DNA from: Candidatus Limicola stercorigallinarum
GTDB lineage: Bacteria; Actinomycetota; Coriobacteriia; Coriobacteriales; Coriobacteriaceae
DNA: 64,000 bases
Direction: 5' to 3'
Assembly (NCBI GenBank): GCA_018711625.1
Contig: DVID01000047.1
Coordinates: 1 to 64,000, forward strand
Numbering within the stretch: position 1 is the stretch's first letter; each line of letters opens with the position of its first letter. Position numbers and translations under genes: made by a program. Below the pieces are notes generated by a model, which saw only the letters and a program-made list of their open reading frames with translations, made no database searches and had not been told where the DNA came from. Shown piece after piece: positions 27,505 through 50,802 of the stretch.

Positions 27505-28425
27505 ATGTCCGACAAGCGTTTTACCGGTGTCATTCCTCCGGTCGTCGTCCCTCTTACGCAGGACCGTCAGCTTGATACCGTTTCTTTGGAGCGCAGCATC
27601 AATCGCATGATTGAAGCTGGCGTAGACGGCCTCTTTATTCTGGGTTCGTCCTCCGAGGTGGTCTTCTCGACCGACCAGCGCCGCGCCGAGATTATCAAGA
27701 ACACCGTTAAGTTTGTTGACGGCCGTGTGCCGGTGCTTGCGGGCATCATCGATACCGAGACCGAGCGCATGATCGAGCACGGCAAGCGCGCCGAGCAGAT
27801 GGGTGTGGACGCCCTTGTGGCCACGTGCCCCTTCTACGCGCTCCAGGGTATCGATGAGATTGAGTGGAGCTTCCGCTGCCTGCATGACGCGCTCGACCTG
27901 CCGATCTTCGCCTATGACATTCCGGTGTGCGTGCACAACAAGCTCAACACCGACATGCTCGTCCGCCTTGGCAAGGACGGCGTGCTGGCTGGCGTGAAGG
28001 ACTCCTCGGGCGACGACATCTCCTTCCGTTATCTCGTGCTCAAGAACGAGGACGCGGGCCATCCCATGTCGATCTTGACCGGCCACGAGGTTGTGGTCGA
28101 CGGCGCCTATCTCTCTGGCGCTGACGGTTCGGTGCCGGGTCTCGCCAACGTCGAGCCCTATGGCTATGTGCGTCAGTGGAAGGCCGCGCAGGAGGGTGAC
28201 TGGACCACGGTCAAGGCGGAGCAGGATCGTCTCGCCCGCATCATGGAGATCACCTCGGTGACCTCTGGCGTTGCCGGCTTTGGCGCGGGCGTTGGCGCCT
28301 TCAAGACGGCGCTGCAGCTCATGGGTATCTTTGAGACCAACCAGATGCCGCGCCCTGTGCACTCGCTCAAGGGTGCCAACGTTGAGGCAGTAAAGAAGGT
28401 TCTTGAGGATAACGGCCTGCTGTAA
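27505..28425 (+). CDS. nanA: N-acetylneuraminate lyase (DapA/NanA superfamily)
   Basis: NanA splits N-acetylneuraminate to ManNAc and pyruvate through a Schiff base. The 306-residue protein has the TIM-barrel layout of the DHDPS/NAL superfamily: GVIPPVVVPLTQDRQLD, GVDGLFILGSSSEVV, a YDIPVCVHNKL strand, and GVKDSSGDD with the Schiff-base Lys. The superfamily phosphate/carboxylate loop is normally G(S/T)TGE; here it reads GSSSE, which is a notable change. The assignment to the lyase rests mainly on linkage with nanK and nanE; another 2-keto acid aldolase of the family is possible. It starts at ATG 27505 after AAGGAG. Confidence 0.78.
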   Translation: MSDKRFTGVIPPVVVPLTQDRQLDTVSLERSINRMIEAGVDGLFILGSSSEVVFSTDQRRAEIIKNTVKFVDGRVPVLAGIIDTETERMIEHGKRAEQMGVDALVATCPFYALQGIDEIEWSFRCLHDALDLPIFAYDIPVCVHNKLNTDMLVRLGKDGVLAGVKDSSGDDISFRYLVLKNEDAGHPMSILTGHEVVVDGAYLSGADGSVPGLANVEPYGYVRQWKAAQEGDWTTVKAEQDRLARIMEITSVTSGVAGFGAGVGAFKTALQLMGIFETNQMPRPVHSLKGANVEAVKKVLEDNGLL

Positions 28426-28509: not shown

Positions 28510-29463
28510 ATGGAGAGCAAAACCATCGTTGCTGTGGACATCGGCGGCACTAAGATTGCCTGCGGATTGGTGACGCTCGGCGGCGACGCTCCAGTGATTG
28601 AAGCGGTTGAGAAGGTTCCCACCGATGCGATGAAGGGTGGCGCCCATGTGCTTGCCACCGTCATTGAGCAGGTTAAGGCCGCTATTGCTCGCGCAACGGT
28701 TGAGCCGGTGGGCGTGGGTATCTCTTCAGCCGGCGTGGTGAACCCCCGCACGGGCGACATCACCTTCGCCAACGAGCTCATGCCCGGCTGGGGCGGTACG
28801 GCGCTTGCGACTGAGGTGACGAAGGCTACCGGGCTTGCCTGCCGCGTCCTCAACGACGTGCATGCCCATGCGCTCGGCGAGGCGCGCTGGGGCGGCGGCC
28901 GCGGTAAGGCCAGCTGCCTCGTGGCGGCTGTGGGCACCGGTATTGGCGGCGCGTTTGTGGAGCATGGGCACATCATGCTCGGCGCCCACGACGAGGCGGG
29001 CCACATCGGTCACGTGTGCTGCCCGGCGGCGGCCGGCGTGCCGTGCTCCTGCGGTGCCACGGGCCATCTGGAGCCCATCGCGGCCGGCCCGGGCATCATC
29101 GCCGAGTACATCCGCCTCGGTGGCGACGAGACCTTTGACGGCAAGCCCATGGACGGCGCCGAGATTGATCGCCGTGCGGCAGCTGGCGATGAGGCCGCAA
29201 AGGCCGCCGAGGCCCGCGCCGGGCGTGCCCTGGGCGAGGTGCTTGGATCCATGTGCAACATGCTCGATCCCGCCTGCGTCATTCTTTCGGGCTCGGTTGC
29301 CCAGTGCGGTCCCGATTGGTCGGATGCCATGAAGGAAGCCTTCCGTGGCCAGGCCATGCCGCCCGTGGCCACCACGCCTGTGGTCGATGGTGAGCTGGGT
29401 GGAGATGCGCCGCTGATCGGCGCGGCCGAGAACTTTGTGAAGTCAGGTTACGCTGAATGCTAG
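28510..29463 (+). CDS. nanK: ROK-family kinase, probable N-acetylmannosamine kinase
   Basis: NanK phosphorylates ManNAc to ManNAc-6-P. The 317-residue product is a ROK-family sugar kinase: VDIGGTKIACG at the N-terminus (phosphate-1), GVGISSAGVVN, VLNDVHAHALGEARWGGGRG, and GTGIGGAFVEHG. The ROK zinc site, normally CxCGxxGCxE, reads CSCGATGHLE here, so a His replaces the third Cys; the preceding HIGHVCC is present. A shift to His could still bind zinc. Position between nanA and nanE supports ManNAc as substrate; glucokinase activity is the main alternative. It starts at ATG 28510 with a GAAAGGA site. Confidence 0.82.
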   Translation: MESKTIVAVDIGGTKIACGLVTLGGDAPVIEAVEKVPTDAMKGGAHVLATVIEQVKAAIARATVEPVGVGISSAGVVNPRTGDITFANELMPGWGGTALATEVTKATGLACRVLNDVHAHALGEARWGGGRGKASCLVAAVGTGIGGAFVEHGHIMLGAHDEAGHIGHVCCPAAAGVPCSCGATGHLEPIAAGPGIIAEYIRLGGDETFDGKPMDGAEIDRRAAAGDEAAKAAEARAGRALGEVLGSMCNMLDPACVILSGSVAQCGPDWSDAMKEAFRGQAMPPVATTPVVDGELGGDAPLIGAAENFVKSGYAEC

Positions 29464-29485
29464 GTCCGGCTCCGGCTTCCCCAGG

Positions 29486-29790
29486 CACCGCACCTTGGCG
29501 TTCAGCTGTGGCGGGATGACCCTAAGGTCTATCCCGCCTAGCTTCACGCCAATCTGCGGCACCTGGGAAACCCGGGCGACCTGAGGGGTTGGAGGTGCGC
29601 CTTCTTTGCTCGGATGCGTTCGGGCATGACCTCAAGGTCTATGCCCTCCGCTTTCGGGGTAACCTCGGGCACTGCGGAAACCCGGGTGTAACGGGCACCG
29701 CACCTTGGCGTTCAGCTGCGGCGGGATGACTATTAGGTCTATCCCGCGCACGCTTCGCTCCAATCTGCGGCACCTGGGGGACTCGGTTGG
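29486..29790. repeat. Three tandem structured repeats between nanK and nanE
   Basis: The 383-base gap holds three related units of about 100-110 bases (29486-29590, 29591-29694, 29695-29790). Each has a central stem: GCGGGAT..ATCCCGC at 29511 and 29721, and CGGGCAT..ATGCCCT at 29621, with a common GAC..AGGTCT between the arms. The middle copy swaps a G-C pair for C-G, so pairing is kept. Units 1 and 3 share long flanks (CACCTTGGCGTTCAGCTG and AATCTGCGGCACCTGG) that also pair with each other. Units 1 and 2 end in GGAAACCCGGG; unit 3 has a variant. No protein is apparent. The last bases before nanE hold only its ribosome site (AAAGGAG). Confidence 0.8.
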
Positions 29791-29846
29791 CCGGAGGGGC
29801 GGGGCAAATCCCGCTCGTTCGTATTCTTCTAGAAAGGAGCGTCGCT

Positions 29847-30533
29847 ATGGCGATCGATCCGTTGATTCAATCATTGAAGGGCAAGCTCATTGTGAGCGTG
29901 CAGGCCTACATGGGTGAGCCGCTGCGCCATCCCGAGACGATGGCCCAGATGGCGCGCGCCTGCGAGCTCGGCGGCGCGGCCGCTATCCGCTGCCAGGGCC
30001 TCTCCGACATCGCGGCCATTAAAGGGCGCACCGAGGTGCCGGTCATCGGCCTGTGGAAAGAGGGGCACGAGGGTGTCTACATCACCCCGACGCTCCGTCA
30101 TGCGCGCGCTTGCGTGGCCGCCGGCGCCGATATCGTGGCCATCGACGCCACCGACCGTCCGCGTCCCGACGGCAAGACCGTCGCCGACACCCTTGAGCCG
30201 CTCAAAGCTGAAGGCGTGCTCACCATGGCCGACTGCATGACCATCGACGATATCCGTCGTGCGGTCGAGATGGGCTTCGACATCGTCTCCACCACGCTCA
30301 GCCACGGCGTTGCCGCCATCGACTGCACCATGGCGGACGGTCCCGACCTGCCGCTGCTGCGTCAGGCTGCCGAGGAGTTCCCCGGCTTCCCGGTGGTGTG
30401 CGAAGGTCGCGTGCACACGCCCGAGGAGGCCCGCGCCGCCATCGATGCCGGCGCCTGGTCGGTGGTCGTGGGTACCGCCATCACGCATCCCACGAGTCTG
30501 ACCTCCTGGTTCAAGGCCGCGCTCGAGGCGTAA
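29847..30533 (+). CDS. nanE: N-acetylmannosamine-6-phosphate 2-epimerase
   Basis: NanE converts ManNAc-6-P to GlcNAc-6-P, which then enters amino sugar metabolism through NagA and NagB (not in this window). The 228-residue TIM-barrel protein has the family segments LKGKLIVSVQAYMGEPLRHP, GAAAIRCQGLSDIAAIK, VPVIGLWKEGHEGVYITPT, GADIVAIDATDRPRPDG (catalytic Lys and Asp region), ADCMTIDDIRRAVEMGFDIVSTTLSHG and FPVVCEGRVHTPEEA. The ATG at 29847 follows AAAGGAG; an upstream in-frame codon at 29787 lies in the repeats. It is separated from nanK by the tandem hairpin repeats. Confidence 0.93.
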   Translation: MAIDPLIQSLKGKLIVSVQAYMGEPLRHPETMAQMARACELGGAAAIRCQGLSDIAAIKGRTEVPVIGLWKEGHEGVYITPTLRHARACVAAGADIVAIDATDRPRPDGKTVADTLEPLKAEGVLTMADCMTIDDIRRAVEMGFDIVSTTLSHGVAAIDCTMADGPDLPLLRQAAEEFPGFPVVCEGRVHTPEEARAAIDAGAWSVVVGTAITHPTSLTSWFKAALEA

Positions 30534-49789: not shown

Positions 49790-49876
49790 GGGTCAGTTGG
49801 GGACGTGTTCCATCTGACCCATTTTTGGGAGAAAATGGTTCAGATAGGTCAGATGGAACACGTCCCCAAATGACCC
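49790..49876. repeat. REP pair in inverted orientation (BIME-like), upstream of RAYT
   Basis: A 31-base REP unit at 49790-49820 has stem arms GGGTCAG and CTGACCC with an inner TGGGGA..TTCCA part. A reverse copy is at 49847-49876. Together they make a bipartite palindrome. The same unit recurs at 50750, 51433 and (reverse) 51498. The remaining bases to the RAYT start contain a ribosome site GGGAGGAG and no other clear feature. Confidence 0.9.
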
Positions 49877-50007
49877 ATTTCGCTCGCAGGCTGGATATTG
49901 TCACTGACCGAAGTGTGGGGCATATGTACCAGTCGGTGTCCTAAGATACAACAACCCTCTTCCGCTGCCGTCTCTAGCTGCACCATTTTCGGGGGAGGAG
50001 TGCGTTT

Positions 50008-50802
50008 ATGCCAAGATTGCCTCGCCAGTATTCGGAATCTGGGTTTTACCACGTTATGTTGCGAGGAAATGGCAAGCAGATTATCTTTGAGGACGACGCC
50101 GACCGTCGGTTCTTTTTAAAGCTTCTTCGGGAGAAAACCGAGGCGGATGGTGTGGCGATTATCGCGTGGTGCCTCATGAGCAATCACGTCCATCTGTTGA
50201 TCGATGACCCAAAGGGGTCGATCAGCCACGTGATGCATGCGATTTCAACAGCGTATGCACGCCACTTCAACGACAAGACTGGTCATCTCGGCGCGGTATT
50301 CCAAGGCCGGTTTACGAGTGTTCCCATAGCGGACGACAACCAGCTTTTACAGGCACTCCGGTACATTCACGAAAATCCGGCTAAAGCGGGAGTGGCCGCC
50401 GTAAGCGAATACCCGTGGAGCAGCTATGGAGAATATCGGGGGCGTCCAGGGATTGCAAACACAGAAATGGTGCTTGATATGGTTGGTGGAACGAACGGCT
50501 TTCTGCGCTTTTGCAACGATGGTCAATTCGGGTCATATTACTTTAGGTCGACGAGTCGGGCTTCCGATGAAGATGCGCTCGAGGTGCTGCGCTGCACGCT
50601 GGGAGGCATAGAGCCTGTAGATATCAAAAAGATGCCAAAGGAGCAAAGAAATCGCGCGCTTCAATCGCTCCGGGCAGCTGGTCTCACGGTGAAGCAGATG
50701 CAGCGGCTCACGGGCATTGGGCACAACACCATCTCTCGCGTAACAAAAGGGGTCAGTTGGGGACGTGTTCCATCTGACCCATTTGAGGAAGGGTGCAAAT
50801 GA
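50008..50802 (+). CDS. REP-associated tyrosine transposase (RAYT, Y1-type)
   Basis: The 264-residue protein has the Y1/HUH transposase domain of IS200/IS605 TnpA relatives. It starts MPRLPRQYSESGFYHVMLRGN. The HUH pair is His60 and His62 in SNHVHLLIDDP, and the likely nucleophile is Tyr119 in LQALRYIHENPAKAG. A C-terminal helix-turn-helix (LTVKQMQRLTGIGHNTISRV) is typical of RAYTs. These enzymes bind and cut REP hairpins and spread them. Here REP copies lie before, at the end of, and after the gene. The last 17 residues (GVSWGRVPSDPFEEGCK) come from a REP copy read in frame. Its stop overlaps the start of the HAD gene by four bases (ATGA). No IS ends were seen. Confidence 0.92.
   Translation: MPRLPRQYSESGFYHVMLRGNGKQIIFEDDADRRFFLKLLREKTEADGVAIIAWCLMSNHVHLLIDDPKGSISHVMHAISTAYARHFNDKTGHLGAVFQGRFTSVPIADDNQLLQALRYIHENPAKAGVAAVSEYPWSSYGEYRGRPGIANTEMVLDMVGGTNGFLRFCNDGQFGSYYFRSTSRASDEDALEVLRCTLGGIEPVDIKKMPKEQRNRALQSLRAAGLTVKQMQRLTGIGHNTISRVTKGVSWGRVPSDPFEEGCK
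50750..50780 (+). repeat. Single REP unit inside the end of the RAYT gene
   Basis: This copy, with the same GGGTCAG..CTGACCC arms as the unit at 49790, is a direct copy of that unit. It encodes the last part of the RAYT protein and lies 19 bases before the HAD start codon, so it would place a hairpin near the HAD ribosome site. Confidence 0.9.

Follow-up and report, generated by a model that had tools for sequence, protein, structure and literature searches.

Three tandem copies of a probable REP-like palindromic element of Coriobacteriales lie between nanK and nanE of Candidatus Limicola stercorigallinarum

Results

The window, by which we mean the whole 64,000-nt stretch of DNA analysed, carries on its forward strand a nanA-like gene of the DHDPS family (27505..28425), a ROK-family sugar kinase (28510..29463; Pfam ROK, 161.5 bits) and nanE (29847..30533; Pfam NanE, 167.2 bits; NCBIfam NF002231, 263.2 bits, above cut-off). 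The NCBIfam NanK models score below cut-off on the kinase, which we call nanK by its neighbourhood. The 383-nt nanK-nanE spacer contains three imperfect hairpins of about 101 nt each, all on the forward strand, with start-to-start distances of 110 and 100 nt according to the covariance model R1 described below. Unit 1 (29474..29574; R1, 104.9 bits) starts 10 nt past the nanK stop codon and is of the type called A below. Unit 2 (29584..29684; 74.4 bits) is a divergent copy with a weak outer stem, and unit 3 (29684..29785; 82.3 bits) is near unit 1, to which it is 93% identical over 54 nt and 81% over 48 nt. The original prediction had placed three tandem structured repeats at 29486-29790, a span that is right within about 12 nt. 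A weak terminator-like hairpin between the array and nanE (29797..29816, forward strand) represents no excess, with one found and 1.2 expected.

The arms that had been read from the sequence are there, GCGGGAT/ATCCCGC in units 1 and 3 and GGGCAT/ATGCCC in unit 2, as is the swap of G-C for C-G between them; the outermost C/T of unit 2, however, is not a pair. The central hairpin is also present, but its apical stem is longer than had been noted, since the arms continue into GACC-4 nt-GGTC with one bulged T (GACT in unit 3). The apical core, ATGACC-loop-GGTC, bulged T, AT, lies on the forward strand at 29516..29532 in unit 1, 29626..29642 in unit 2 and 29726..29742 in unit 3, and is conserved, with one change in unit 3. 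Pairing of the outer flanks, predicted for units 1 and 3, was found in both and weakly in unit 2. Folded on the gene strand, units 1 to 3 have z-scores of -9.0, -2.5 and -4.6 (200 shuffles each, of which 0, 3 and 0 fold as well); the other strand of unit 1 gives -11.5 and the whole spacer -8.3 (100 shuffles). Allowing up to two mismatches, the apical pattern matches the three units and nothing else in the window; shuffled windows contain a mean of 0.61 matches and reach three in 2 of 100 cases.

We built R1 (101 positions, 24 pairs) from 18 distinct copies, alignment A3. The core, ATGACC-4 nt-GGTC-T-AT, forms a stem with a single bulged T. Below it follow complementary but variable stems, split by conserved irregular positions (TTCA against TTTC, ACCTTG against CAATCT, and CACC against GGCAC), and both the bulge and the mismatches persist across families. 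In A3, 90.0% of 432 cells are paired, a percentage inflated by the derivation of the structure from the same sequences. Two-sided changes occur in 19 of the 24 pairs, which none of 500 shuffles matched, and the covariation score of 0.429 compares with 0.207 (sd 0.019) after shuffling and with no more than 0.12 when the partners are slid. The two-sided changes are not due to the shared derivation of the structure alone, and this extensive covariation bears out the suggestion that the structure is under selection.

The element is widespread. By blastn, the array had matches in 42 of 98 related genomes, spread over 5 of 36 genera, and R1 found copies in 49 of 59 genomes of the organism's own family. 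In its own genome R1 returned 8 rows at 7 places, one row being a reverse echo of unit 1; it gave 42 rows in the genome G037, 51 in G005 and 44 in G046, reverse echoes among them, and counts in Collinsella-like genomes reach about 50 rows. Across the order, 46 of 120 genomes matched, 25 within the family and 21 outside it. The best match outside the family scored 90.8 bits, and the weaker ones there (E 1e-5 to 1e-7) are not all verified; 55 rows came from eleven outside genomes, and 24 were read in context. Copies lie behind many unrelated genes, including pheS, purH, agaS and the RNase P RNA gene. One copy in the own genome, L174 (C47:665-761), is composite, its 5' arm seemingly replaced by a RAYT-type repeat, GGGGACGTGTTCC. 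The original prediction had proposed a covariance-model search of relatives and a look at other intergenic regions, and was to fall if the unit occurred only here and its alignment held no further covariation; both searches returned copies, and neither uniqueness nor lack of covariation applies.

No Rfam family matched the element among 4227 families, searched at the gathering threshold or, on selected loci, at E up to 0.5-1; on element loci there were two weak matches to microRNA models, far below cut-off. Collinsella-1 RNA (RF01700), likewise structured and found in Coriobacteriales, was considered and rejected, as it matched neither the own genome nor any scanned element locus. Plasmids gave no match to one type A query, phages none to one type B query, and viral contigs none to one pattern. 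A literature search outside subscription papers, which took in parts of Weinberg 2010 (PMC2864571) and of a paper on RAYTs (PMC2817692), found no description of this repeat, and the supplementary tables of Fremin & Bhatt 2021 (PMC8040213) may list the motif.

We determined the placement of 64 copies. Of these, 3 come from the window and 4 from other places in the own genome; the remaining ones are from G037 and G046, and some are orthologous and hence not independent. There are two ARRANGEMENTS, type A and type B. Type A starts 0-11 nt behind the stop codon. Type B starts about 40 nt behind it, after an extra hairpin that itself begins at the stop; the gap is taken up by this hairpin, which reads GTTACGCGG..CCGCGTAAC or a variant of it, and by a linker with GACGCTG at its end, and a TCGCTG border follows the element on its 3' side. 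With genes called by a home-made codon-usage caller rather than an annotation pipeline, 18 of 21 type A copies lie no more than 11 nt from the stop, where uniform placement in the gap would give 3.0, and 31 of 39 type B copies do so when measured from the first hairpin (2.8 expected). The upstream gene is co-oriented in 60 of the 64 copies, among which convergent pairs give no information on orientation. The next gene is co-directional for 18 type A copies and convergent for 3, with a median of 77.5 nt to the next co-directional start; for type B the numbers are 20 and 19. The degenerate copy L170 was left out of the placement and T-run counts and L163, whose apical core is inverted, was flipped; both, and L174, were left out of the profile and of the strand counts by type. 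Copies from other families show both arrangements (L376 and L377 at 0 nt and L383 at 1 nt from the stop). One copy (L167) sits about 15 nt behind an RNase P RNA gene, so the anchor may be the 3' end of the gene and not translation itself.

A run of T is not typical behind the element, TTTT occurring within 12 nt in 3 of 64 copies, and for want of a T run directly behind the hairpin we rejected the reading as an intrinsic terminator. At two loci of one outside genome (L372, L390), the hairpin ahead of the element does look like a true terminator (CCGGCCTAACGGCCGG and a T run), hinting that the first hairpin of type B was derived from terminators. In G037, a single contig of 2.306 Mb, the orientation of the copies splits at two opposite points of the chromosome (31 of 36, for the best split picked after the fact), as expected if the element follows gene orientation and replication.

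We also compared the two strands. Read on the strand opposite to the gene, the conserved mismatches turn into tandem pairs, namely G.A, G.G/G.A and G.T. That strand has the lower minimum energy in 104 of the 112 non-redundant copies with RNA parameters and in 107 with DNA parameters, and in 22 and 24, respectively, of the 24 copies from other families, counts that are not independent because copies share ancestry. Within the window this applies to unit 1 only, units 2 and 3 folding better on the gene strand, and the consensus of the 18 sequences folds at -30.1 on the gene strand versus -27.3 on the other. The paired columns hold 98 G-U and 74 A-C cells, which is not decisive for a sense-strand RNA. 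We regard these energies as a lead, not a proof, that folding of the non-coding DNA strand may matter.

Presence at orthologous sites is unstable. Among NanE neighbourhoods from 80 named genomes, R1 matched in 21 loci. The nanK-nanE spacer holds three copies here, two in Collinsella tanakaei and in an uncultured Collinsella, and one in Collinsella sp. An2; in Enorma phocaeensis R1 finds none, and a decayed copy is visible by eye. Of 18 loci from the C. aerofaciens group, 12 carry a single reversed copy in a nanK-nanE spacer of about 141 nt, and six have no copy in a spacer of 71 nt. All 18 have a copy between nanA and nanK, a gap that in the window (84 nt) is without the element. When unfilled, the nanK-nanE spacer of this group forms a simple hairpin, and its stem is similar to the outer stem seen in filled spacers (5 of 12 filled and all 6 unfilled spacers aligned). 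From this one site came an early reading in which the element would always insert into the loop of a pre-existing hairpin, and we do not generalise it.

Seven sites of G037, followed through up to 20 genomes, gave 90 orthologous sites, 47 with the element and 43 without. At one and the same site, close species carry differing subtypes, shortened copies, cores inverted in place, or another palindrome family. Thus copies appear and disappear, switch subtype, become shorter and are inverted in place, and the suspicion of an unrecognised mobile repeat is supported by this presence and absence, by the copies elsewhere and by the lack of an Rfam match. A MITE would have terminal inverted repeats and a target-site duplication; the outer arms here are complementary, and among the sites compared none is an insertion with a clean duplication. 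At one orthologous site (L349, L350, L353, L354) the apical core has been turned around in place and reads ATAGACCTTCTGGTCAT.

Three sites are common to the own family and another, with gene names assigned by reading the proteins: pheS-pheT (PheS 74% identical), behind purH (73%) and agaS-nagA (84%), the last of which also has a copy in the own genome. This suggests long retention or function, and not selfish spread alone. PheS matched in 74 genomes, and 50 were examined, four of whose loci (L426, L428, L430, L431) were misread by the script. R1 finds the element in 6 of 30 pheS-pheT loci, a seventh being a weak match of 19 bits; in 20 further spacers, a different palindrome lies directly behind the stop in 5. 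A near-identical neighbour, L401, retains only the element's 3' tail at its unfilled pheS-pheT site, which therefore looks like a deletion.

Other palindromes occupy the same post-stop positions. A second family, which has the core ..GGACAGTCCT..GGAACTCGC.. and outer arms that vary but are complementary, occurs at L307, L310-L318, L440, L442, L445-L447 and downstream at L134, in Collinsella-like genomes and in another family. A short palindrome, AATGTGACAAAGGGACTGTCCCTTTGTCACAT, or a near variant stands directly behind the stop where relatives have the element (L303, L281, L367-L369); at L281 it lies behind the element.

The window also encodes a RAYT-like transposase (50008-50802; 264 aa; Y1_Tnp, 55 bits; NF047646, 77.4 bits, just under the cut-off of 80). 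It is flanked by a different repeat, GGGTCAGTTGGGGACGTGTTCCATCTGACCC, at 49790 and 50750 (49790-49831, 49844-49877 and 50750-50791), and the gene with its own REP pair is likely a REPtron. R1 finds no element flanking this RAYT, the only one inspected. Y1 transposase counts do not track element copy number, and no link to a mobile enzyme was found: G011 and G015 have 21 and 24 element rows and no Y1 match, and G010 has six Y1 matches and no element.

Discussion

We think it probable, at roughly 60%, that the element is a large REP-like family of palindromes maintained and spread at the DNA level by a putative enzyme; secondarily, it may affect the 3' ends of transcripts. The array behind nanK would then most plausibly be three tandem copies of this Coriobacteriales element, and its triplication is better read as local tandem expansion than as a dedicated nan regulator.

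Di Nocera et al. 2013 (PMC3733652), in the parts consulted, describe GTAG and CGTC superfamilies of REPs, and do so with none of the Coriobacteriales names that we searched for. Like those REPs, the element is a dispersed intergenic palindrome whose stems vary; it is found close to the 3' ends of ORFs, whether the flanking genes are co-directional or convergent, in numbers that vary by species, and like the CGTC type it lacks an obvious transposase. Unlike them, it is a single irregular hairpin of about 100 nt, which exceeds their stated 20-40 bp two- to fivefold, and type B carries an additional hairpin as well as the constant borders GACGCTG...TCGCTG. GTAG-tagged REPs have an unpaired GTAG at one end; of 112 copies here, just 9 show GTAG among their first 12 nt or CTAC among their last 12. 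In the CGTC-tagged REPs of that paper the stem is 8-9 bp with an unpaired CGTC at its foot, the tail is CCA and the loop has 4-5 nt, whereas the apical stem here is 10 bp with a bulge, often starting GGGC, and the tail is TCC; CGTC appears in the expected stretch of 55 of 112 copies and is absent from that stretch in units 1-3. The element is thus REP-like by position and behaviour, yet longer and at odds with the tags of both superfamilies. ERIC/RU, BOX and similar repeats are also imperfect intergenic palindromes, of about 100-130 nt; length, palindromy and intergenic place are alike, and host range and stop anchoring differ, a distinction drawn against general descriptions of those repeats.

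In the reading that we prefer, the element would spread and persist as a DNA hairpin that a putative enzyme recognises by its irregularities, the bulge and the tandem mismatches, probably on the strand opposite to the gene. Landing or survival would be confined to the 3' ends of genes because the least harm is done there. After transcription, the hairpin may shield the mRNA upstream of it or trim it, and may uncouple it from the next gene.

The main competitor makes that last step primary: a functional 3'-UTR or intercistronic RNA, whose hairpin would stabilise the upstream cistron or set its ratio to the next, selection for this effect holding it behind stop codons. The tight anchoring to stop codons and to gene orientation would suit this, as would the short distance from type A to the next co-directional gene, the three sites common to two families and the copy directly behind RNase P RNA. 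We nevertheless find it doubtful, though worth keeping in view, since the element is missing at 43 of 90 orthologous sites and is found by R1 at pheS-pheT in only 6 of 30 loci, the excess of G-U over A-C does not strongly favour the RNA strand, and the opposite strand is the more stable in most copies. An effect on mRNA 3' ends in general is possible. The original prediction had allowed for an mRNA stability or regulatory element inside the operon. That the array regulates nan in particular, for which its three copies here would speak, is hardly credible and is rejected by the distribution: the element stands behind many unrelated genes, and relatives have from none to three copies at this spacer, sometimes reversed.

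Inversions in place and truncations are typical of palindrome mutation at the DNA level, and both occur here, as they would if template switching kept the palindromes complementary with neither function nor enzyme. We consider this unlikely, because template switching would erase the conserved bulge and mismatches that persist across families, and because dispersed copies argue that something copies them. Slightly less likely still is that the element is the REP of the RAYT transposases of these genomes. A RAYT gene is present in the window, and REPs of other bacteria lie close behind the 3' ends of ORFs (PMC3733652, as far as consulted); however, this RAYT adjoins the other repeat, GGGTCAGTTGGGGACGTGTTCCATCTGACCC, and Y1 counts are out of step with element rows. 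Integron attC sites lie behind stop codons, fold on the non-coding strand and conserve structure over sequence, and the element resembles them in all three respects. We judge it very improbable that it is such a recombination site: the attC R-box pair, RYYYAAC/GTTRRRY, occurs in 0 of 112 copies on either strand, and the hosts are housekeeping genes in operons, not cassette arrays.

A broader reading is more speculative than the REP-like one, and we would not put much weight on it. Here the element would belong to a stop-anchored superfamily of Coriobacteriales in which the irregular core is fixed and the arms, though complementary, can be exchanged. Its functional form would be the folded non-coding DNA strand (tandem G.A and G.T pairs, extrahelical base); it would be moved by a putative structure-reading enzyme and share hot spots with at least one other palindrome family, as a novel attC/REP-like system.

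For Collinsella, Enorma and other Coriobacteriales of the gut, the finding means that a genome can have up to tens of copies of an unannotated structured repeat, placed at the 3' ends of ordinary genes. In these hosts the repeat is relevant to the expression of operons and to the 3' ends of mRNAs, and it can mislead searches for riboswitches and small RNAs. It is also a natural experiment on the spread of palindromes, and if its strand bias reflects recognition of folded single-stranded DNA, it would point to a new putative enzyme.
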